Below are positions 47,225-61,681 of a stretch of 61,681 nt of DNA, one piece after another (position 1 is the stretch's first letter; every line of letters begins with the position of its first letter). This DNA is from an uncultured bacterium. Lineage in GTDB: Bacteria > Hydrothermota > Tepidihabitantia > Tepidihabitantales > DTDR01. The translations under genes and the position numbers were made by a program. The notes beneath the pieces were generated by a model. It worked only from the letters and a program-made list of their open reading frames with translations, was not told where the DNA came from and ran no database searches. The DNA lies in NCBI GenBank assembly GCA_938040315.1, contig CALHQW010000014.1, positions 1-61,681 of the forward strand, given 5' to 3'.

Positions 47225-47493
47225 CTTTCAAAAATTATATTGCCTTTATTATCATAAAGGGTAATAATACCACCTTTTTCTTGGGCACCAATTTCGGCAA
47301 TTGGTCTTCCTTCCTTGTTAAAAATCATTAATCCACCACCCTCTTTACCCGCCCACATACTCATAACAACCTTTCCTTCGTTATTATATATTAAAAACAC
47401 ACCTCCTTTTTCGGTTTGCTTAATTTCTAATAATACCTTGCCCTCTTCATTAATAAACTGTAAACCTTCCTTATTAATATTAATTTGCTTCAT
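47221..47493 (-). CDS. Small beta-repeat protein, unknown function
   Basis: I do not recognise a named family. The 90 residues are built from three to four repeats of about 23 residues with the pattern NxEGKxxxxIxxxExGGxxxIY, alternating Gly turns and beta strands, as in a small beta-solenoid or sheet stack. It has no signal peptide. Its ATG overlaps the stop of the acidic gene by 1 nt (TAATG) and its own end overlaps the peptidase gene. Confidence 0.7.
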   Translation of the reverse strand: MKQININKEGLQFINEEGKVLLEIKQTEKGGVFLIYNNEGKVVMSMWAGKEGGGLMIFNKEGRPIAEIGAQEKGGIITLYDNKGNIIFER

Positions 47494-47816
47494 TAATCCT
47501 CATCAAAATCTTCCTCTTCTTCCTCATCGTCAAAATCCTCGTCTTCTTCCTCATCATCAAACTCTTCCTCTTCTTCCTCATCATAATCTTCATCCTCTTC
47601 TTCATCATCAAAATCTTCCTCTTCTTCATCGTCGTCAAAATCCTCGTTCTCTTCATCTTCGTCAAAGTCTTCGTCTTCGTATTCTTCCTCTTCGTATTCT
47701 TCTTCTTCGTCGTCTTCGTATTCCTCTTCTAACAAGAAGATTTCTGGAAGGAAGAATTTCTTTTCTTCTTTTTCTTCTAAAATATCACTTAATAAAAATA
47801 ATTTGTTTTTATCCAT
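47493..47816 (-). CDS. Highly acidic Asp/Glu-repeat protein
   Basis: The 107-residue protein starts MDKNKLFLLSDILEEKEEKK; from about residue 30 it is nearly pure Asp, Glu, Tyr and Phe, in repeats like EEEDFDDEEEDEDYDE. The DNA is a degenerate repeat of TCATC/TTCTTCC units. AAAGGAGG precedes the ATG, which supports real expression. Such tracts may bind divalent cations or basic proteins, but no function can be assigned. It heads the operon down to the slipin gene. Confidence 0.65.
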   Translation of the reverse strand: MDKNKLFLLSDILEEKEEKKFFLPEIFLLEEEYEDDEEEEYEEEEYEDEDFDEDEENEDFDDDEEEEDFDDEEEDEDYDEEEEEEFDDEEEDEDFDDEEEEEDFDED

Positions 47817-47853: not shown

Positions 47854-47881
47854 ATCTTACTTAAAAAAATTTTTATTTCAA
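47854..47881 (-). promoter_or_regulatory. Possible promoter of the acidic-protein operon
   Basis: On the minus strand, TTGAAA (47881-47876), a 16-nt spacer and TAAGAT (47859-47854), giving a leader of about 30 nt with an AAAGGAGG site. The -10 match is modest. Confidence 0.4.
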
Positions 47882-47953
47882 TAAAAAAAAGGTGGTAACC
47901 TAAAGGGGTACTTTTCCGTCATATATATAGAAGAAGATATAAGGGAGGATATT

Positions 47954-48433
47954 ATGAAGTTTTACCTATCAGATGAAGAAAAAGAGAAAATTAAAAAATT
48001 GGGCATCCTAAAAATAAGCCAAGCCACATACTTCCTTAACGTAAATAGAAAAATGTCCCAATCTGTCCCAAAATGCCCCAATCTGTCCCAATCTGCCCCA
48101 AAGTGTCTCCAACTGCCACAAACTGTCCGTTTACTTTCACTCGTAAAATCATTATATTTTCTATGTATGTTTGATAAAAAAATAATAAAAATTGTATGTC
48201 GAGGTTTAAGGGTAAATGCTCCTATTAAAATGATTGTGGAACTTAAACCTGTGGAATCTTTTGACTACAAAAATTGCGTTTCCGAAATGGATTTCTTTGC
48301 CGTTAATCTTATACAACACGCCGATATCTACCTATCCGTCAGATTAATAAGAGAATTATTGCAAAGATTACCAGCAATGTTTCCTCCTGATATAAATAAT
48401 ATAAATAAAGTTATAAACGAATTCGAAAAATAA
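47954..48433 (+). CDS. Unknown 159-aa protein with 10-residue repeats
   Basis: No family recognised. AAGGGAGG lies 7 nt before the ATG, which argues for expression. Residues 1-32 (LSDEEKEKIKKLGILKIS ... NVNRK) could form a small HTH-like helical unit. Residues 33-57 contain 10-residue repeats (SQSVPKCPNL, SQSAPKCLQL, PQTV) encoded by the 10-bp DNA repeat at 48051-48130. The remainder is mixed, with Cys and Val, and ends in helices. It marks the left edge of the accessory region. A chance ORF cannot be excluded. Confidence 0.5.
   Translation: MKFYLSDEEKEKIKKLGILKISQATYFLNVNRKMSQSVPKCPNLSQSAPKCLQLPQTVRLLSLVKSLYFLCMFDKKIIKIVCRGLRVNAPIKMIVELKPVESFDYKNCVSEMDFFAVNLIQHADIYLSVRLIRELLQRLPAMFPPDINNINKVINEFEK
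48051..48130 (+). repeat. Eight-copy 10-bp tandem repeat
   Basis: Eight consecutive 10-mers follow the pattern aactGTCCCa (for example aaatgtccca, atctgtccca, aaatgcccca, atctgcccca, aactgtccgt). Because 10 is not a multiple of 3, the coding period is 30 bp or 10 residues. Such direct repeats occur in replication iterons, protein-binding arrays and low-complexity coding DNA. Confidence 0.85.
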
Positions 48434-49104: not shown

Positions 49105-49266
49105 ATGAAAAATTGTTATCAAAGTAATGAAAAAATAATTAGAGTTTTACAATTAAAGGAAAATGCAGTATTAGAAGGAAGGACTTTGAAAAAAGGCTTT
49201 TTGGCTCTACTTTTCTTTTGCCCAAAATGGTTAAGAGCCAAAAAGGCAAGTGCCAGACCAAACTAA
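49105..49266 (+). CDS. Small 53-aa ORF, possible leader peptide of the kinase operon
   Basis: The product begins MKNCYQSNEKIIRVLQLKEN and ends with a hydrophobic then basic stretch (GFLALLFFCPKWLRAKKA). It has no Shine-Dalgarno sequence but its ATG sits 7 nt after a TATAAT box, as in other leaderless genes here. Its 3' half contains an 11-bp inverted repeat. It lies 16 nt upstream of the next gene. It may be a real small membrane-active peptide, a leader peptide, or a chance ORF. Confidence 0.45.
   Translation: MKNCYQSNEKIIRVLQLKENAVLEGRTLKKGFLALLFFCPKWLRAKKASARPN
49197..49245 (+). repeat. Inverted repeat within the 53-aa ORF
   Basis: CTTTTTGGCTC (49197-49207) pairs perfectly with GAGCCAAAAAG (49235-49245) around a 27-nt loop. 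There is no T-run after the stem, so it is not a clear terminator; it could be an attenuation or RNA-stability structure just before the kinase operon. Confidence 0.6.
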
Positions 49267-49282
49267 ATAACAGGAGGTTTAA

Positions 49283-49630
49283 ATGAAGTTAATTTTAATA
49301 AAAAATCAGAGTAAAGGATTATTTGGTGGTGTGAAATTTGAAGTGCAAGCCCAAGGGGAGTTATCTGATGAAGAAAGAAAACTTATACATCCTTATAAAC
49401 TCGAAAATGAGATACTCTTTCAAAAGAAATTGGTAAATCTTTGGGAACAACCTACTGATTATGCGCTTGATGTGAAGGTAAAGGATTTTCTTTCTTGGCA
49501 GACTTACAAGTGTAAAGATCTGGCCGAGGTTATTAGTTTTGCTGAGCGTCTGATTGAGGCAGGAAAGATGCTAAAAACTTATTTAGCGGTTGCTAAATCT
49601 TTTGGTGGACAAGAAATCTATGAATTCTAA
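49283..49630 (+). CDS. Unknown 115-aa protein at the head of the kinase island
   Basis: No family recognised. The product (MKLILIKNQSKGLFGGVKFE ... KTYLAVAKSFGGQEIYEF) looks like a compact alpha/beta protein: beta strands in the first 50 residues, a Trp/Cys-containing middle (FLSWQTYKCKDLAE), and a C-terminal helix. There is no signal peptide or membrane helix. A full AGGAGG site precedes the ATG. It lies 67 nt upstream of the kinase gene, so it may be an accessory subunit or substrate. Confidence 0.7.
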   Translation: MKLILIKNQSKGLFGGVKFEVQAQGELSDEERKLIHPYKLENEILFQKKLVNLWEQPTDYALDVKVKDFLSWQTYKCKDLAEVISFAERLIEAGKMLKTYLAVAKSFGGQEIYEF

Positions 49631-49697
49631 AATAACTTTCCAGAGAACCAGGGAAATGACCTTAATTTCTTAAAAAAATATAAAAAGGAGGAGCAAA

Positions 49698-52376
49698 ATG
49701 GAGGATAATTCTAAAAAGACCAAGCGGGCAGAGGAAGATGTCATCTCGTCTGGAGTTACGCCTACGGATAAGACCCAGAAAGATGAGGGATCCGTAATAA
49801 AATCGGGTGTTACTCCCACGCCGACAGCCCAGATAATTTCTGCTGGAATTGTAGGCGCTGTTGGAAGCGAAATAGTTCTTAATGGCAAAACTTATCGAAT
49901 ATCAAGATTTATTGCCAGTTCTGGTGAAGCCGAAGTCTATTTGTTAGAAAGAGAAAATCAGAAGTATATTTTCAAGTATTATTATTCCCGATTTAAACCT
50001 AACGAGAAAATTTTGGAGAAACTAAAAGGATTAACTCATGAGAATATAATAGCGCTTATTGATTATGGTTATTATTATGGTCGGTTCTTTGAGATTCTTG
50101 AATATGCAGAAGGTGGCTCAATTATTGATACTAATCCTGATGGTACCTATCGGTATATTCCAATAAAGGATATGAATAAATTAAAGCGGATAATAAAAGA
50201 GGTTGTAAATGCACTCCAGTTCTGCCATTCTAAGGGAATAATTCACCGGGATATAAAGCCTGGAAATATCTTTTTTGCTAATCCTGATGGCACGGGTGTG
50301 AAGATTGGTGATTTTGGTATTTCCTCATTGTTTGATGAAGGGTTATCAAAGCATATCACAACAGACCAGGCGAGGACAGAAATATATGCTGCACCTGAGT
50401 TGTATCAGACTATCGGTGGCAAAATATTAATATCAAAAGGAGTAGACTATTATGCCTTAGGAATAACGCTAATTCATATCTTCTCTGGTGAGGAACCTTT
50501 TAAGGATTTGAATGCCTTAGCGATAATGAGGGTAAAATGTGATGGAATGGTCTATATTCCTGAGGATATGCCTGAAGATTTAAAGAATTTAATAAAGGGT
50601 CTTATCACTGTGGAGTCTTCTAAACGTTGGGGCTATGAAGAAGTTCAAAAATGGCTGAAGGGTGAATATGTTCCAGTTTATTATAAGACCGTGGAGTTTA
50701 AGTATGAACCTTTTCCTTTTGGTGTGATTAAAGGAAAAGAGGTAATAGCGAGGGATCCAGCAGAATTGGCAGATTTATTATTAAAATATCCAGAGATTGG
50801 AAAATTTCATATATATAAAGGTAGGGTTGAAAGGTGGTTGGAAAATGCGAAGAACCCAGTATTTACTCTCATTGAGACTATTCGGGAAAAAGAATATCCT
50901 AAGGATGAAGAGGCGGGTTTAATTAAGACTGTCTATCTTCTAAATCCATTAAAAGGTTATATTACCTTTGCCGGAATTGAATGTAAAACTGCGGAAGAAA
51001 TTGGCGATGCAATTGAGCGGGAATTTTCATATTATATGCTCTATCTTACCCAGAAGAAAAATGCTGACCTTTTTCTTTACTTGGAGGCTCATGATGCAAA
51101 AGATGTAGCCGATGCATTTAGGAAATATGCCCAAGCCTATAGTCCTGACCGGGCATTTAATATGATGGTATTAGAATTACAGGGCAAGGATAAATTTAAG
51201 ATGGGAAATATGATATTCCGTAAACCAGAAGATTTACTTCTGGCTGATGATAAGACAAAAGATAAACTAGCGAAAGAGTTGAGTAATCCTAATTCAAAGT
51301 TATCAATCTGGCTTGAACAGTTTGCCGAATTAAAGAATAGTATTGATAAATGGCGGAAAATTGGTAGATACGATGGAATTACTTTAAGGTATGCATTGGA
51401 TAAAGATAGTGCATTCCCTATAAATGGAAGCAAAGCACGAGATGTCAAAGAATTTGAAGCCCTCCTTTCTCAAAATATATTAACTATTTCAAAAAATTTA
51501 GCACCGGAGACCGATTTTGTCAAAGAAGCAGATTTTTGGCTAAAGAATTACCAAAATAGCGACTTTGAAACCTGTTGGATAAATATAATTGATAATATTA
51601 CTGCTTCTGGTCCTATTTCTGATGAAGCACGAAAAGTTTATGAATGGTTATGCGAAAAATGGGCTGAGTATGCCCGTAAAAGAGTAGATAGAAAATTAAG
51701 AAAGAAATTTATTGAGTTATTAAAAAAGATTAATTCCGATCATAAGTTAATTGGGCTTTACATAAAAGAAGAGGAAATTATAAAAAAATTAGTTGAAGCA
51801 GAATGGGCAAAAATAGATAAAATTCAAAAAGATAAATTGGAAAAAATAGAAAGGGATAGAAAGAATTACTTAAATAGGTTAAGGGCTTTAGAGAAAGAAA
51901 AGCGAAAGAAAGATTTTTTGGAAAAAAGGGATGAGGCTTTTGGTGTAGGCATCCTTATGGCTGTGGCATGGATACTGTTTTTTACTCTGAAAGGTAGTCA
52001 AGTCCTAATCTGGATTTGTGTGATAATAGGGGGTATAGTAGGTCTTGCTTCTGGAAGAGTAGGAGGTGCTATTGTAGGTGTTATTGTAGGCGCTCTCGTA
52101 GGCAAATTCCTACCATTTGTACTTATTATACTTACACCAATATTTATAATCCTCCTTATCCGTGCGCTGATATCTTATAATAAAATAAACCAGAAGGTAT
52201 TTAAGATTCGCCTCTCACCTAATGAAAAACAGAAATATGATAATAAGAAAATCGCAGTGCAAAAGGAGATGGATGATAAAAAAAAGAAGGCGGAACTGCA
52301 AATTGTAAGTGAAGTTTATAAAATGGATGAAACCAAAATTGATAATGAATTAAAATCGCTTACTACCAAAAGGTGA
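49698..52376 (+). CDS. Membrane-associated Ser/Thr protein kinase
   Basis: The 892-residue protein has a Hanks-type kinase domain at about residues 65-330. Visible are a degenerate Gly loop ([11 protein letters not shown]), Lys93 in [14 protein letters not shown] (Asp185, Asn190), DFG (205-207) and APE (232-234), so it should be active. The N-terminal 50 residues carry a repeated SGVTPT motif, a possible phospho-site. Residues about 340-680 are unrecognised; a coiled-coil follows (about 690-750), then two or three Gly-rich hydrophobic helices (about 755-820) and a charged tail. AGGAGG precedes the ATG. A triple-AAA+ gene follows after 5 nt. Confidence 0.9.
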
Positions 52377-52381
52377 TAACT

Positions 52382-54898
52382 ATGCCAACACTCTGTGTAA
52401 AATGTGGTGCATCAAATCGTGACATTGCTAAATATTGTAAGTTTTGCGGTGCAAAAATTGCTCAGCCCTCATTTCAATTAGAAGATTTAGTTGGTCTTGA
52501 AGATATAAAAGAGCAGATTCAAAACATTATCAACATCGCTAAAGGAATGGAAAAGAGAAAAAAGGCAGGGCACCCGGTTCCAAAACAAAATCTTCATACA
52601 ATTATTATTGGTAATACTGGAACAGGAAAAAGTAGAATTGGAGAAATATTATGCAGAGTTTTTTATAAATATGGGATTACAACCAAAGAGGATGCCCTTA
52701 TTGTTGATGCTGTTGACTGGCCAAAATTTGCCAAAGATTTTGAGCAGAATTTTCAGAAGGCAAAAGGCGGTATCCTCTTTATTGATAATGTGCAGAAATT
52801 GGTGCCTGCCGGCTATTCAAACGAAATAAATCCTCTGGATAAATTATTCAGTGAAATGGATAAATCAAATTACGACCCAATTATTATTCTTTCTGGATTA
52901 CCAAAGGGATTAAAAGAATATCTTGAAGAAAATCCAAGTATCAAAGGCAGATTCAAATACATTTTTGAGATACCCGATTTCAATGCCGAGCAGTTATTTC
53001 AAATTGCTGAAAAGGAATTAAAGAAGCAAGGTTTTACTCTTAATGAAGAGGCAGAAAAAAGATTAAAGAAATTATTTAAACATCTTGTAAAAACCAAGGA
53101 CGAAACATTCAGTAATGCCCGGGAGGCAATAAAACAGGTTGAAGATATTATAAATAATTATTATCTCCGTATCTCAATAGGTGCCCCTGATAACTGTATT
53201 ATCGTTCCTGAAGATATCAAAGGTGAATTTCCTGAAGAAAAGAAAGAGGAAGAGATTTTTGAGGAACTTAATAAACTTGTTGGAATGGAAAATGTAAAAA
53301 CCGAAGTGAGAAATCTTATAAACACAATAAAGGTCCAGAAAGAAAGGGCAGAATTACTCGGTGAAACTTATAAACTGGGGATTCATATTGTTATGACCGG
53401 AAATCCGGGAACTGGTAAGACTACTATCGCGAGAAAACTTGGTGAAATATTCCATGCAATCGGATTACTTGATAGAGGTCATGTAGTGGAAGTTGACCGA
53501 AGTAAGATGGTTGCCCAGTATGTTGGTCACACTGCACCACAAGTAAATAAACTTTGTGATAGTGCAATGGGTGGGATTTTATTCATTGATGAGGCATACA
53601 CCCTTGCGCCAGAAAATGTTGTTGATTCCTTCGGCAAAGAGGCGATTGATACCTTATTAAAGAGAATGGAAGATGATCGGGGTAAATTTATTGTGATAGT
53701 TGCCGGTTATCCAAAAGAGATGGAAAATTTCTTGAATTCTAACCCCGGTTTACGCTCACGTTTTACTACTTACTTCCACTTTGAAGATTATAAGCCCGAT
53801 GAATTACTTGAAATTTTCAAAATTATGGCTAAATCAAACAAATACGAAATTGAAGATAAGGCAGAAGAGAAATTGAAAAGAATATTTACTCTAATGTATG
53901 AGAGAAGAGACAAAACCTTTGCGAACGGTAGAACCGTAAGAACCCTTTTTGAGGAGTGTCTTACGATGCATGCTAATCGGATATTAACAATTACTGATTA
54001 TGAAATAAAGAAAAAAGAAATGTTAATAATTAGAGTTGAAGACATACCTCCTAAATATGAAGTGGAAAAAGAAATCAGAATTGAGGATGTTATAAAGAAA
54101 TTAGAGAGTCTTATCGGACTTGAGGCAGTGAAAAAAGAGATCAAAAGTTTGATAAATTACCTACAGGTTGAAAAGGCAAGGGCTTCAATAGGTGTAAAAG
54201 AGACGATGTTAAACCTCCATTTTGTTTTTCGTGGCAATCCTGGTACTGGTAAGACCACTGTTGCCCGAATCCTTGCCGAAGTTTTTAAAGCGCTTGGACT
54301 TCTATCAAAAGGGCATCTTGTTGAGGTGGATAGGGCTGGGCTTGTTGCCGAATATGTTGGTCAAACTGCACCCAAGACCCACAAAGTCATTGATAGTGCA
54401 ATGGGCGGTGTTTTATTTATTGACGAAGCATATACCCTCGCACCAAGGGGAGCCGGAGCAGATTATGGCAAAGAGGCAATAGACACTTTATTAAAGAGAA
54501 TGGAAGATGACCGAGGTAAGTTTGTTGTGATTGTGGCAGGATATCCAGAACTAATGGATGAGTTCATCAATGCTAATCCAGGTCTTAAATCAAGATTTAC
54601 AAAATATATTGATTTTGAGGACTACAAACCAAAAGAGTTAAAAGCAATATTTGAGTTAATGGTAAAGAATAAAGGAATGAAACTGGGTGAAGGTGTAGAA
54701 GAATTTCTGGAAAAACTATTTACCAACATTTATAACAAAAGGGATAAAAATTTCGCTAATGGTAGAACAGTAAGAAACATCTTTGAGATGGTTTTACAGA
54801 ATCAATCAAGCAGGGTTGCCGAACTAATGCAGAAAGGTAAAGTGAGTGAAGAGGATTTAAGAACAATCGTTATTGAAGATTTTGGTAAAATAGAGTAA
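52382..54898 (+). CDS. Zinc-ribbon protein with three AAA+ modules (CbxX/EccA-like)
   Basis: The 838-residue protein starts with a zinc ribbon ([10 protein letters not shown] ... YCKFCGAK, residues 5-23), then three AAA+ modules. Walker A motifs are GNTGTGKS (77-84), GNPGTGKT (340-347) and GNPGTGKT (618-625). Modules 2 and 3 have Walker [11 protein letters not shown] and closely related sequence, as in CbxX/CfqX, rubisco activase CbbX and EccA ATPases. Module 1 has FIDNVQKL, with Asn replacing the catalytic Glu, and is probably impaired. I chose ATG 52382 with AAGGTGAT upstream; a GTG three codons earlier is less likely. It may remodel a protein complex under kinase control. Confidence 0.9.
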
Positions 54899-54923
54899 TA
54901 TGGTTTTAGAAACAAAATATAAT

Positions 54924-54941
54924 TGCACCTTTTAGGGTGCA
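54924..54941 (+). repeat. Short hairpin between the AAA+ and ankyrin genes
   Basis: TGCACC-TTTTAG-GGTGCA, 26 nt after the AAA+ stop and 17 nt before the next start. It lacks a T-run, so it may be a weak attenuator, an RNA-processing site or a structure near the AGGAGG site. Confidence 0.5.
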
Positions 54942-54958
54942 TAAAAAGGAGGTAAATT

Positions 54959-55354
54959 ATGGATTTAAATGAAATTTTAATTCAAGCAGCAAAAGATGGA
55001 AATATGTTGGTATTAAAGGCTGCTTTAGAGAAAGGTGCGGATATTAATGCCCAAGATGAACATGGTTGAACTGCACTTATGTGGGCGTCAAAGAATGGAC
55101 ATACAGAAATTGTAAAATTCCTTAAAGAAAAAGGAGCACAGGAATTTCCAATACCTAAAATATCAGAAGAGACACCTCTGTTTCCTGTTGAAATTGGTGG
55201 GGAGTGGGGTTATATTGATAAGGCGGGCAAAGTTGTGATTGCTCCCCAGTTTGACGATGCTTTGGATTTCAGTGAAGGTCTTGCTTCTGTTAGAATTGGT
55301 TGGAAGTGGTGTTATATTGATAAAACTGGTAAGATTGTTTTCAAAGAGGAATAA
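54959..55354 (+). CDS. Ankyrin/WG-repeat protein interrupted by an in-frame TGA
   Basis: AAGGAGG precedes ATG 54959. Codons 1-36 encode an ankyrin start (ILIQAAKDGNMLVLKAALEK, GADINAQDEHG). Codon 37 (55067-55069) is TGA, then the frame continues with TALMWASKNGHTEIVKFLKE. Ankyrin repeats usually have Trp here (GWTALMWA), so TGG to TGA is a single-base change. After it come two WG repeats (WGYIDKAGKVVIAPQFDDA and WCYIDKTGKIV). The gene is either a recent nonsense mutant, read through, restarted at ATG 55079, or a sequence error. Both repeat types are protein-binding modules, so it probably serves as an adaptor in the island. Confidence 0.75.
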
Positions 55355-55359
55355 TAATT

Positions 55360-55899
55360 ATGTATTGTGCCTTTTGTAAAGCAGAGATAGAGGACGATTC
55401 ATTCTATTGTGATCAGTGTGGACGGGAAATTTTAATCTGTCCTAAATGTAATAAACCGGGCAAAGGTAAAATTTGCACGCAGGATGGAACTACCTTGATA
55501 ACAGCAAAAAGCCGTTCTTCCACTATTCAGGTTGATGAGGTTAATGTGCAATTCTCACCTACATCCGCTAATGAATTACATCTCATAAACAGAAATCTTA
55601 ACCTGGATATTAAAATCACAAAAGATGTTTTAATCGGTAGAGCAGAAGGTGATTTTGTTGAGATATTTAGAAAATATGACGCAGTTTCACGCAGACACCT
55701 GAAAATTAGTTTTGACCCCCAAAAAGGTTGGCTTGCAACCGATTTGGGCTCAACTAATGGCACAAAATATAATAATACTCTATTAACTCCAAATCAACCC
55801 CAAGTTCTTGCTGACAAATCATTCTTACAGATTGCAAATATAGAATTCTATGTAGAAATTAGAAGACCAAAAGAAGAAGATAAAACCAAGAAGTTATAA
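55360..55899 (+). CDS. Zinc-ribbon/FHA-domain phosphothreonine reader
   Basis: The 179-residue protein has an N-terminal double zinc ribbon (YCAFCKAEI, YCDQCGREI, CPKCNKPGKGKIC) and a C-terminal FHA domain at about 75-170. The FHA has the phosphate-binding set: GR (about 93-94), SRRH (about 108-111) and STNGT (about 129-133). FHA domains bind phosphothreonine peptides, so this is the expected reader for the nearby kinase. It ends exactly where the PP2C gene begins, giving tight coupling. Confidence 0.9.
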   Translation: MYCAFCKAEIEDDSFYCDQCGREILICPKCNKPGKGKICTQDGTTLITAKSRSSTIQVDEVNVQFSPTSANELHLINRNLNLDIKITKDVLIGRAEGDFVEIFRKYDAVSRRHLKISFDPQKGWLATDLGSTNGTKYNNTLLTPNQPQVLADKSFLQIANIEFYVEIRRPKEEDKTKKL

Positions 55900-56682
55900 A
55901 TGAAATTAAAAATTTTAGCAATAAGTGACAAGGGTTGTGTTAGAGAGCATAACGAAGACATGGTGCTAATTGGCGATAATATATTTCGGGACGACCGGAA
56001 AGAATTAATCGTTGATTTGAAAGATAAACCTATTTTCTTTGTTGCAATTGCCGATGGTATGGGTGGTCATAATGCCGGTGAAATAGCAAGTGAATTGGTT
56101 TTGACAGAAATGGCGAAAAGAATTAGAACAATAGAAGAAGGTTTGTCAGAAAAAGAACTTGCTGATAAATTTTCTATCTGGGCAAAAGAGATTCATTCAT
56201 TTATCTTAGAAGAAGGAAATAAAGATGATAATAAAAAAGGGATGGGTTCTACTTTGGTCGGAATTTTATTTTACGAAGGAAGGGTGTATTATATAAATGT
56301 CGGTGATAGTCGGCTATATAGATTGAGAAGGGGCAATCTTATACAAATTTCAAAAGACCACTCTCTTCAAGCGGTAATAAGAAGCGAAGAAGTTCCATCA
56401 AATATCATTTTGAATTCCTTTGGCGGTGGTAAGGGAATTTTTATTGATTTTTACCCTGCTGGTGGTGTAGTGTTGAATGACGATATATTACTCCTCTGTA
56501 GCGACGGATTATCAGATATGTTAACTGATGATGAAATTGAAAGTATCTTAAATAATGAAAAAGAGAATGTAATAGATAAACTCCTTGAGGAAGCAAAGAA
56601 AAAGGGTGGCGAAGATAATATTTCTATTGTTTTAATACATATAACTATGGAAAATAATTCAATAGAAATGGAAACATCATAA
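55900..56682 (+). CDS. PP2C-family Ser/Thr protein phosphatase
   Basis: The 260-residue protein opens LKILAISDKGCVREHNEDM. It has IADGMGGHNAGEIAS, KKGMGSTLVGILF, YYINVGDSRLYRLR, LLLCSDGLSDMLTDDEI and GGEDNISIVLI, the complete PP2C metal-binding and catalytic set. It has no membrane helix. It would reverse phosphorylation by the kinase encoded earlier in the same operon. The ATG directly follows the FHA stop codon. Confidence 0.94.
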   Translation: MKLKILAISDKGCVREHNEDMVLIGDNIFRDDRKELIVDLKDKPIFFVAIADGMGGHNAGEIASELVLTEMAKRIRTIEEGLSEKELADKFSIWAKEIHSFILEEGNKDDNKKGMGSTLVGILFYEGRVYYINVGDSRLYRLRRGNLIQISKDHSLQAVIRSEEVPSNIILNSFGGGKGIFIDFYPAGGVVLNDDILLLCSDGLSDMLTDDEIESILNNEKENVIDKLLEEAKKKGGEDNISIVLIHITMENNSIEMETS

Positions 56683-56708
56683 GATTTGAAAATAAATGGG
56701 GAGGATAT

Positions 56709-57560
56709 ATGAAATATCATGAAAAAGGTAAAGAAAAGGAAAAAGAAAAAAGAAAAATACTTCCATCTGAAGAGGAAAAAGAAGGTAAGGAGTGTCCAAA
56801 TTGCCATTTTATCAACGAAACCGAGGCAAAATTTTGTGCTGAATGTGGCTATGATCTTTCAACCGGTGAAAAATGTCCCAAGTGCGGTGCAAAAATTGTC
56901 TCACCATATGCGGATATATGCGAGGTATGCGGTGAATGGCTATTAGAAGGAAAATGTAAGTTCTGTTACGCTGACCTTGAAGAAGGAGCAACTTATTGCG
57001 CAGAATGCGGTAATCCTGTGGCTGGCATAATTTGTCCACAATGTGGAAGATTAAGTTATTTTGATTTTTGTAAATTTTGTAATACCCCACTTACTCATAT
57101 TGCCTATAAAATGATAGAAAGAGTGAAAGCCAATCCAGAAGAAAAGATTGAGAAATTTACTACCAATCAAGAGGCAAGGGCATATTTTATGGCACAAAAG
57201 TTTGTGATGATGGGTGTAGAGGTTAAAGAGAAAAAAGAAGAAGATAAGGCAGAGGAACTACTTAAAATGAAAGAATACATTGAAAAAGTGAAGAAAAAAC
57301 AGAAAAAAAAGACATATACCCCATTATTTAGTGAGAAGCAAATACAGGATATATTATCCAGTGGTAAAGAGGCAGAGAAGGAAATACAAAGGCAAGAGGA
57401 AGAAAGACGAAGAAAAGAAGAAGAAAGGAGAAGAAGGCAAGAGGAAGAAAGGAGAAGAAGACTTAGAGGATGGGTCTGTTATTGCTGCCATGTTCTGCAT
57501 TCTAGTCCCGCGGACTGTGGTTGTCCTTATGCCGGTGGGTATTGGGTAGATTGGATTTAA
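56709..57560 (+). CDS. Multi-zinc-ribbon coiled-coil protein
   Basis: The 283-residue protein has four to five CxxC-type zinc ribbons between residues about 25 and 130 (CPNCHFINETEAKFCAECG, CPKCGAKIV, CKFCYADLEEGATYCAECG, CPQCG). A helical region follows, then a highly charged Arg/Glu coiled-coil (about 225-260) and a Cys-rich C-terminus (WVCYCCHVLHSS, DCGCPYAGGYW). It resembles double zinc ribbon scaffolds. As the last island gene, and sharing ribbons with the AAA+ and FHA proteins, it may be a scaffold or substrate. Confidence 0.8.
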   Translation: MKYHEKGKEKEKEKRKILPSEEEKEGKECPNCHFINETEAKFCAECGYDLSTGEKCPKCGAKIVSPYADICEVCGEWLLEGKCKFCYADLEEGATYCAECGNPVAGIICPQCGRLSYFDFCKFCNTPLTHIAYKMIERVKANPEEKIEKFTTNQEARAYFMAQKFVMMGVEVKEKKEEDKAEELLKMKEYIEKVKKKQKKKTYTPLFSEKQIQDILSSGKEAEKEIQRQEEERRRKEEERRRRQEEERRRRLRGWVCYCCHVLHSSPADCGCPYAGGYWVDWI

Positions 57561-57586: not shown

Positions 57587-57751
57587 GAATGTTTAGACAA
57601 AAGAAATTCATATTTATATAGTTATAGTAAAGCAAAAAAAATCTATGATATAACTGGCAAAATTGTAAAAGAAAATAAACGGAAGAGAGGTATATATTTC
57701 AAGCAAACTGAAAAAGGCATAAAAAAAATAAACATTATCTATATTTATTAA
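57587..57751 (+). pseudogene. Remnant of a T9SS C-terminal sorting tail
   Basis: Between stops in one frame, the translation includes KKIYDITGKIVKEN, RGIYFKQTEKGIKK and INIIYIY. This matches the end of T9SS-sorted proteins elsewhere in the window, such as the C25 peptidase tail (IYEITGKKV ... GIYYILIQ ... IIYIK). No start or upstream domain is present, so it is the decayed 3' end of a lost secreted-protein gene. It separates the kinase island from the permease. Confidence 0.7.
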
Positions 57752-59827: not shown

Positions 59828-61681
59828 ATGTCAGAACATAATTCTCTTATTAATTTAGCAGATTCTCTTGTTTCCCAAACAAAAAATATACTTTCCTCTG
59901 CAAAAACTGAAGAAGATTTAAGAATTGGATTTGAAAAAATCTTAGAACCGATATTAAAAGAATTAGATATTAAATCAACTCCTCGCTATGAAAAGTCTAT
60001 ATATAAATCAGGTCGTAGTGATGCTCTTCATGGTCAAGTGATAATTGAATATAAATCACGGGGTTCCTTTAAATCTAAAAAGACTATTAATAACACTTTC
60101 CGACGATTAGTTGAGTATATAAAAGGACTTTGCGAAGAACAAAAGGATACGCTTTTTGTGTTGGAGGTGAAGTATATAGGTGTTGGTTTTGATGGCGAAC
60201 AAATATTTTTTGTTCAATATAAAGGTGATAAAACTAAACTAAAAGCAAAATTAGAGGATAAAGATTTTAAAATAATTGGTCCTTATGAGTTTAATGAAGA
60301 AAGTGCTCGGACTCTTCTAATTCATTTACGGGCTTTATCTCGTTTACCTTTAAATGCGGAAAATTTAGTTAATAAATTTGGACCTAAAAGTGAACTTACA
60401 CTTCAAATGGTTTCTGCACTTAGTAGGGCTTTAAAATATTGGGGCAATCAGACCCGTATCCAAACATTTTTCAATGAATGGAAAAGACTCTTTGGTATTG
60501 TTTATGGCGAAAAATTTAGTGGTGGTTGTGAAAGTAAAGAGATAGAAGCCTTTTCTCAACTTTACAAGATAAGTAAAGAAATAAATTTTCAAGAACTTTT
60601 ATTTTCTATTCATACTTATTTTGCCTTTTTAATGAAACTTATTGCTGCTGAAATTTTAACTTTAAGAGAGACATCTTTTAGTTCCTCTCTTGCTTCTCAA
60701 TTTACCCATATTTCTGATGATGAACTTAAAACGCAACTTGAAGATATAGAAAATGGTGGAATTTATGCTCGTAAGGGGATTACCAATTTTTTAGAAGGTG
60801 ATTTCTTTCGTTGGTATCTTGATGCTTTTGATTCACCGGAATTAAAAGAGGCAATAAGGGAAGTTTGTCGGGCTCTTTCTGAATTTGAACCAGCAACGAG
60901 CATATTAAATCCTGATTTAACTCGTGACCTTCTTAAAAAACTTTATCAATATTTAGTTCCGAAAGAAATCCGCCATTCTCTTGGCGAATATTATACTCCT
61001 GATTGGTTAGCCGAATTATTACTAAATGAGGTTGGTTATAATGGGGATACATTGAAAAGGTTTTTAGATCCTGCTTGTGGCTCAGGCACTTTTCTTGTTT
61101 TGGCTATTCAAAGAGCAATAAAACATGGTAGAGAAAAAGAAAGACTACCAGATTTAGAAATTGGTAAAAGGATTATTAATAACATTTGGGGGTTTGATTT
61201 AAATCCTTTGGCAGTGATTGCTGCCCGCACAAACTATCTCTTTGCTTTGGGCGATTTAGTAAATCAACTAGTAAAACAACTTCCGAGAATAGAAATTCCG
61301 ATTTATCTTTGTGATTCGGTTTTAACTCCAACAAGAATCACAAAAAATCTTTACAGCGAATTTTTAGAAGTTTCAACTTCTGTTGGTAAATTTCAGATTC
61401 CTGCTGAATGGGTGAGAAGTGGCGGATTTTTGCTACCTACAGCGGTATCAATTATTGAAGAGATGGTAAAAAATAAATATTCAGTTGACCAAGCGATGGA
61501 AAGATTTAAAGAAGAGGGATTAGTTTTTCCAACTAATGAGCAAGTGGTGAAAGATTTGTACAATCAAATCTTAGAATTGGAAAATCAAAACAAAAACGGA
61601 ATTTGGGCAAGATTTTTGAAAAATGCTTTTGCGCCAATGATGGCTGGAAAATTTGATTTTGTCGTTGGTAATCCACCATGG
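59828..61681 (+). CDS. Type IIG-like restriction endonuclease/N6-adenine methyltransferase (3' partial)
   Basis: An open frame runs from ATG 59828 (directly after an in-frame TAG) to the window end, 618 codons without a stop. N-terminal residues about 55-80 hold a PD-(D/E)XK-like nuclease core (GRSDALHGQVIIEYKS). A helical region follows (about 150-380), then an N6-adenine methylase domain with LGEYYTPDWLAELLL, motif I FLDPACGSGTFLVLA (about 413) and motif IV VVGNPPW as the last residues seen. Fused nuclease and methylase suggest Type IIG; BREX PglX-like is an alternative. The target-recognition domain lies outside. An AAAGGAG is 14 nt upstream, and a 13-codon ORF (59786-59827) ends right at the start. 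Confidence 0.87.
   Translation, partial: MSEHNSLINLADSLVSQTKNILSSAKTEEDLRIGFEKILEPILKELDIKSTPRYEKSIYKSGRSDALHGQVIIEYKSRGSFKSKKTINNTFRRLVEYIKGLCEEQKDTLFVLEVKYIGVGFDGEQIFFVQYKGDKTKLKAKLEDKDFKIIGPYEFNEESARTLLIHLRALSRLPLNAENLVNKFGPKSELTLQMVSALSRALKYWGNQTRIQTFFNEWKRLFGIVYGEKFSGGCESKEIEAFSQLYKISKEINFQELLFSIHTYFAFLMKLIAAEILTLRETSFSSSLASQFTHISDDELKTQLEDIENGGIYARKGITNFLEGDFFRWYLDAFDSPELKEAIREVCRALSEFEPATSILNPDLTRDLLKKLYQYLVPKEIRHSLGEYYTPDWLAELLLNEVGYNGDTLKRFLDPACGSGTFLVLAIQRAIKHGREKERLPDLEIGKRIINNIWGFDLNPLAVIAARTNYLFALGDLVNQLVKQLPRIEIPIYLCDSVLTPTRITKNLYSEFLEVSTSVGKFQIPAEWVRSGGFLLPTAVSIIEEMVKNKYSVDQAMERFKEEGLVFPTNEQVVKDLYNQILELENQNKNGIWARFLKNAFAPMMAGKFDFVVGNPPW

Follow-up and report, generated by a model that had tools for sequence, protein, structure and literature searches.

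A cluster of five core genes that probably, though by no means securely, encodes a phosphothreonine switch controlling a protein-remodelling ATPase of the CbbX/EccA type at the membrane was identified in an uncultured bacterium of candidate division WOR-3. The DNA analysed (the window) is an entire contig of 61,681 nucleotides (G000:C14) from a 1.49 Mb genome. The five core genes encode a Ser/Thr kinase, a zinc-ribbon protein with three AAA+ modules, an FHA protein, a PP2C phosphatase and a multi-zinc-ribbon coiled-coil protein, respectively, and it is close to certain that they form one functional unit. According to Pfam and NCBIfam, the gene order in the window is kinase, zinc-ribbon/triple-AAA+ protein, ankyrin-WG protein, FHA protein, PP2C and zinc-ribbon coiled-coil protein. 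The core genes, with two parts of the kinase, are located as follows.

49698..52376, + strand: Ser/Thr kinase, core (892 amino acids; Pkinase 9e-37; orthologues in 11 other loci)
49698..49877, + strand: N-terminal tail of the kinase, with candidate sites for phosphothreonine docking (KTKR at residue 8; T[VI]R enriched in the orthologous tails)
50703..51761, + strand: kinase C-terminal module of three beta-hairpin plus helices repeats (residues 336-688; model with a predicted local distance difference test score, pLDDT, of 90.9)
52373..54898, + strand: zinc ribbon and three CbbX/EccA-type AAA+ modules, core (841 amino acids; Walker B is DN in module 1 and DE in modules 2 and 3)
55360..55899, + strand: double zinc ribbon and FHA domain, core (179 amino acids; C-terminal KTKKL)
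55900..56682, + strand: PP2C phosphatase, core (260 amino acids)
56709..57560, + strand: multi-zinc-ribbon coiled-coil protein, core (conserved C-terminal W-x-C..H..P..C..GG-x-W motif)

Every gene named in the first-pass annotation of the window is there. Its proposal of a self-contained phosphothreonine cassette centred on a protein with several AAA+ modules is supported, and the neighbourhood is conserved. The kinase has the expected catalytic motifs (K93 in IFKYY, HRD, DFG and APE) and membrane helices in a hydrophobic cluster at residues 745-830. The PP2C phosphatase retains its catalytic motifs, the FHA reader is supported by a domain match and is joined to a double zinc ribbon, and the multi-zinc-ribbon coiled-coil gene is present at its predicted place.

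Relatives of the cluster were searched for with one gene at a time, either AAA+ module 1 or a profile of the FHA protein, so that co-occurrence of the other four core genes is not circular. When GTDB genomes were scanned with only AAA+ module 1 as the query, relatives were detected in Ignavibacteriales, Melioribacteraceae and another member of the Bacteroidetes. The FHA profile detected its gene in 7/294 genomes of the class containing Ignavibacteriales and in 7/396 genomes of the phylum to which the third locus belongs, a set that overlaps with the first. Ten loci were found outside WOR-3, in Ignavibacteria, Melioribacteraceae and other Bacteroidota including Prevotella. The neighbourhood of kinase, AAA+, FHA and PP2C genes recurs, more often than chance would allow, in all nine complete loci, each of which has the whole core, ordered zinc-ribbon protein, kinase, AAA+, FHA and PP2C; the tenth (L055) starts at the AAA+ gene, where its contig starts. 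The gene encoding the zinc-ribbon protein is the first of the operon in Bacteroidota and the last in the WOR-3 form. The kinase of the G202 locus is divided into two overlapping frames. A Planctomycetota-type sample of 294 genomes (the phylum of G742) yielded one weak match, to FHA only, and a first contig scan with a single sequence as the query gave no match. Matches of about 30% to the AAA+ protein were also obtained in Bacteroidales (L057-L063), but L057, the one examined, is part of a polysaccharide cluster rather than of this cassette.

Within WOR-3, the kinase-specific C-terminal part was detected in 3 of 147 genomes, namely that of the window, G035 (another family) and G140 (another class), and was not found in either genome of the same genus (G001 and G002). 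The G035 locus retains the order kinase, AAA+, ankyrin, FHA, PP2C and zinc-ribbon protein, with approximately 57-85% identity to the window, and its kinase is split over two contigs. The G140 fragment contains only the kinase end, a DZR-NHL protein and the AAA+ protein. The five-gene set is found together in the window, in G035 and in the nine complete loci. The core proteins have also co-evolved, as their divergence is correlated over ten loci (matrix r 0.49-0.91, with the observed value reached in at most 5 of 2000 permutations). Recurrence of the set with single-gene queries, together with this correlated divergence, indicates that the cassette is a real unit.

Several irregular arrangements were seen among these relatives. 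Both contigs of G035 (L031 on C86 and L052 on C29) terminate in copies of one and the same kinase N-terminus, which suggests that the kinase is duplicated or that the arrangement is tandem or circular. In G140 (L051), the frame is lost where the kinase C-terminal part passes into sequence resembling NHL repeats; a zinc-ribbon/NHL-like protein comes next and then the AAA+ gene, which looks like recombination between repeats. A zinc-ribbon protein with a single CbbX-type AAA+ module is encoded at 3664-5391 of L032 (G030:C15) and has no kinase, FHA or PP2C neighbours.

A short threonine motif is shared by the kinase and the FHA protein. The N-terminal tails of the kinases contain repeated T-x-R motifs resembling [DE]KT[VI]R, and a single tail can have as many as five. 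Across 11 kinase tails, 7 of which have it, T[VI]R was counted 21 times; shuffling gives an expectation of 0.47, and the highest count among 5000 shuffles was 4. Four tails, both WOR-3 tails among them, have no more than looser T-x-R/K forms, which in the window lie at T8, T23 and T26. Of 12 FHA orthologues, 10 have T-x-[RK]-[LIV] as their last residues, versus 0 of 44 other core proteins. Phosphothreonine is the ligand of FHA domains, and known FHA proteins read it either on the kinase (PpkA-Fha1 of the type VI secretion system, T6SS) or on their own tail (GarA/OdhI). Because of this precedent, the T-x-R motif is most simply read as a candidate docking site on both the kinase and the FHA reader itself.

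The AAA+ protein of the window scores above the cut-offs of the SpoVK, CbbX and EccA NCBIfam models (551.7 bits against a cut-off of 459 for TIGR02880), and its nearest solved relatives are CbbX (3syk, 2e-57) and EccA1 (9lur, 1e-50). Its phage matches, at less than 45% identity, are generic CbbX relatives and were set aside. The number of modules per protein is three (window, G035, L056 and G202), four, five or six (L055, 1677 amino acids). The description of the window protein as a triple AAA+ protein holds for its domain content, as three AAA and three AAA_lid_6 domains are present, but module 1 is degenerate and only two modules look competent for hydrolysis. The Walker B motif of module 1 is FIDN instead of FIDE in the window; DN is found in most members and DE in L056, whereas the scan of module 1 gave no Walker match in G202 and no Walker B match in G256. 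Lacking the catalytic glutamate, module 1 should bind ATP but not hydrolyse it, judging from the sequence. From module 2 onward, Walker A and the DE of Walker B are kept in every member. The arginine of the S-R-F/I motif is present in all later modules scanned except one, and a Y-x-G pore loop is present in many later modules, including both of those in the window.

Residues 336-688 of the kinase are predicted to form a confident fold (mean pLDDT 90.9) of three repeats, each a beta-hairpin followed by helices. No convincing match to this module was found in Pfam or among PDB sequences, and its fold had no match at E <= 0.001 among PDB folds or viral folds. The start of the module recurs in a plasmid locus of Aristaeella lactis, whose second kinase is similar up to and including that part (26% over 390 amino acids), and for this reason it may be a more widely used sensor module.

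In the proposed switch, the kinase would be anchored by its C-terminal helices and would sense a signal through the C-terminal repeat module or the membrane part. The active kinase would phosphorylate the T-x-R threonines of its own N-terminal tail and of the FHA protein C-terminus, and the FHA domain would bind these phosphothreonines. Since it could bind at both sites, the FHA/zinc-ribbon protein may switch between self-binding and kinase-binding, and in doing so would bring the zinc-ribbon scaffold together with the AAA+ ring. With a module 1 that does not hydrolyse ATP and active CbbX-type modules behind it, the AAA+ protein would then thread or remodel a target protein, and PP2C would reset the switch. 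The accessory proteins (ankyrin/WG, propeller and SUKH) would probably bring in targets specific to each locus. Some points weigh against this scheme. The C-terminal motif is missing from both Prevotella-type FHA proteins, the motif forms in the window are weaker (KTKR and KTKKL), and the order of events could be the opposite, with the ATPase acting upstream of the kinase. A bolder version, in which a horizontally spread system uses a kinase-FHA T-x-R docking code to license a CbbX-type AAA+ machine of three to six modules while exchangeable adaptors choose the targets, is put forward tentatively, as a possibility that we would not yet favour.

Rubisco repair, secretion in mycobacteria and sporulation are the known settings of CbbX-type ATPases; kinase-PP2C-FHA switches have been described in T6SS and in mycobacteria. 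If the proposed switch is correct, a unit that joins both kinds and is kept across WOR-3 and Bacteroidota (Prevotella among them) would represent a new regulatory machine. It would also provide a function for proteins annotated merely as SpoVK-like ATPase, kinase or FHA protein. The scheme yields testable predictions, as it names the threonines, the reader, a glutamate-less first module and an orphan domain as the sensor.

Alternatively, the cassette may be a biological-conflict system, anti-phage or inter-bacterial, in which invasion is detected by the kinase or the zinc-ribbon scaffold, the AAA+ ring acts as a regulated effector, and the accessories serve recognition or immunity. The sparse distribution (3/147 WOR-3 genomes and neither genome of the same genus; 7/294 and 7/396 elsewhere) and the variable adaptor slot are consistent with such a role, and SUKH and ankyrin domains are common folds of immunity proteins. 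Conflict systems with a kinase and PP2C also exist (PMC7159879). However, the core contains no effector of nuclease or other toxic activity, and PADLOC 2.0 gave no defence-specific match for the core proteins: the FHA and zinc-ribbon proteins had no matches, PP2C had one weak match (18 bits), and the matches of the kinase and the AAA+ protein span generic domains only. The system was not found in viral contigs either, as a search of IMG/VR with the kinase end and AAA1 gave no match. Apart from one HEPN/MNT pair, one transposase and an ATP-binding protein that is partly similar to the MAD3/MAD8 type, the genes flanking the other loci are mostly housekeeping genes rather than defence islands. 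The defence role suggested earlier for the island is a guess with little in its favour, and a conflict system is considered unlikely. The suggested link to the restriction gene downstream was not upheld, as a homologue is found at an unrelated site in G001, which is of the same genus and lacks the island; that gene was accordingly ruled out as a part.

The chromosomal housekeeping contexts would fit an envelope or stress regulator, in which a one-off signalling operon monitors the membrane and the AAA+ protein acts in chaperoning or quality control, a role akin to regulation of the PknB type. The membrane helices of the kinase agree with this, and metal or redox sensing is conceivable for the zinc ribbons. 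Housekeeping genes are nevertheless seldom so patchily distributed or accompanied by such variable accessories, and no conserved envelope-gene neighbour was found in the locus flanks, so that this explanation too is judged improbable. Similar ingredients also occur in T6SS, type VII secretion system (T7SS) and rubisco systems, and the cassette might be a displaced control module of one of these, with its targets elsewhere in the genome. TssC, WXG100 and the RuBisCO large subunit were each detected in 0 of 13 carrier genomes, whereas the controls were positive (E. coli for TssC). This agrees with the earlier remark that no secretion structural genes or rubisco were seen here, supports the view that the cluster is not part of a T6SS, T7SS or rubisco operon, and makes a displaced module very improbable.

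Several known systems come close to the phosphothreonine switch proposed here. The threonine phosphorylation pathway of T6SS (PpkA, PppA and Fha1) likewise combines a membrane kinase, PP2C and an FHA protein in one cluster, and its reader docks on phosphothreonine. It differs in that carriers of the cassette lack the TssC sheath gene, the FHA protein of the cassette carries zinc ribbons and, at its C-terminus, a T-x-R motif, and the set is tied to a CbbX-type AAA+ protein. The AAA+ module family is common to the cassette and to the CbbX rubisco activase, EccA1 of ESX-1 and SpoVK, but the cassette protein has three to six modules per chain, an N-terminal zinc ribbon and a glutamate-less first module, and neither rubisco nor WXG100 accompanies it. 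The anti-phage system MADS (MAD6 kinase) likewise has a Ser/Thr kinase and an AAA ATPase in one locus. The window kinase misses the MAD6 equivalog cut-off (86.5 versus 460 bits), and to our knowledge FHA and PP2C are not parts of MADS. A plasmid locus of A. lactis (L111, NZ_CP069422) has the same ingredients (kinase, zinc-ribbon FHA, AAA_2, PP2C and kinase), but its AAA protein is of the ClpB/Cdc48 type and radical SAM and DUF6273 genes are present. Conflict systems with a kinase, PP2C and vWA in NTPase-centred loci have been described (Kaur et al. 2020, PMC7159879). They resemble the cassette in a kinase fused to a transmembrane segment or zinc ribbon, a PP2C partner and an NTPase-centred locus, whereas they are GTPase or MoxR/vWA systems, and CbbX/CbxX is not mentioned in that paper. 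No vWA or GTPase domain is among the Pfam and NCBIfam domains listed for the window core proteins. In the openly licensed literature, no paper was found in which CbbX/CbxX is linked to FHA together with PP2C or a phosphatase. The fixed combination of kinase-PP2C-FHA with a CbbX-type AAA+ protein appears to be undescribed, each half being of a known kind.

Two further genes of the window locus are not part of the core.

54959..55354, + strand: ankyrin-WG gene, accessory (TGA interruption at 55067-55069)
49283..49630, + strand: 115-amino-acid protein without a family match, found only in the WOR-3 version (homologue 5' of the kinase in G035:C29, the second of the two contigs)

The ankyrin/WG adaptor of the first-pass annotation does exist as a gene, but it is a variable accessory rather than a core component. 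It contains an in-frame TGA where the G035 homologue has Trp. As TGA ends 18 of 48 long open reading frames in the window, it is an ordinary stop there; an alternative genetic code was ruled out, and the codon is either a nonsense mutation that breaks the gene or a base error. The WOR-3 ankyrin copies share two ankyrin repeats followed by differing C-terminal parts: WG for the window copy, and, for G035, another extension and a beta-propeller-like part (identified by eye). In G140, NHL-like repeats, also identified by eye, are fused to the zinc-ribbon protein. A SUKH gene is found at the end of the G256 locus and inside the operon in G229, and the Bacteroidota loci are without the ankyrin/WG gene. 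The slot occupied by ankyrin/WG, propeller and SUKH proteins looks like a place for exchangeable adaptors.

The upstream flank of the window locus is conserved to approximately 47.2 kb in the genomes of the same genus, after which G001 runs into unrelated sequence. An empty site was not obtained from these genomes, as the G002 contig ends shortly after the conserved flank. Genes for an ArsP permease and thioredoxin-like proteins were ruled out as parts because they were not seen beside other loci, and a 53-amino-acid frame at 49105 is without support. A Type IIG-like restriction-methyltransferase gene lies at 59828-61681 and is cut by the contig end. The HEPN/MNT toxin-antitoxin-like pair in L056 (9089-9822) is directly 3' of the PP2C gene. 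Short stretches upstream (47866-48021) and downstream (57630-57730) of the island have dispersed copies in G001 and G002 and are possibly remnants of mobile elements. A 107-amino-acid frame at 47493-47816 encodes a highly acidic, D/E-rich product and has a 9-base repeat structure.

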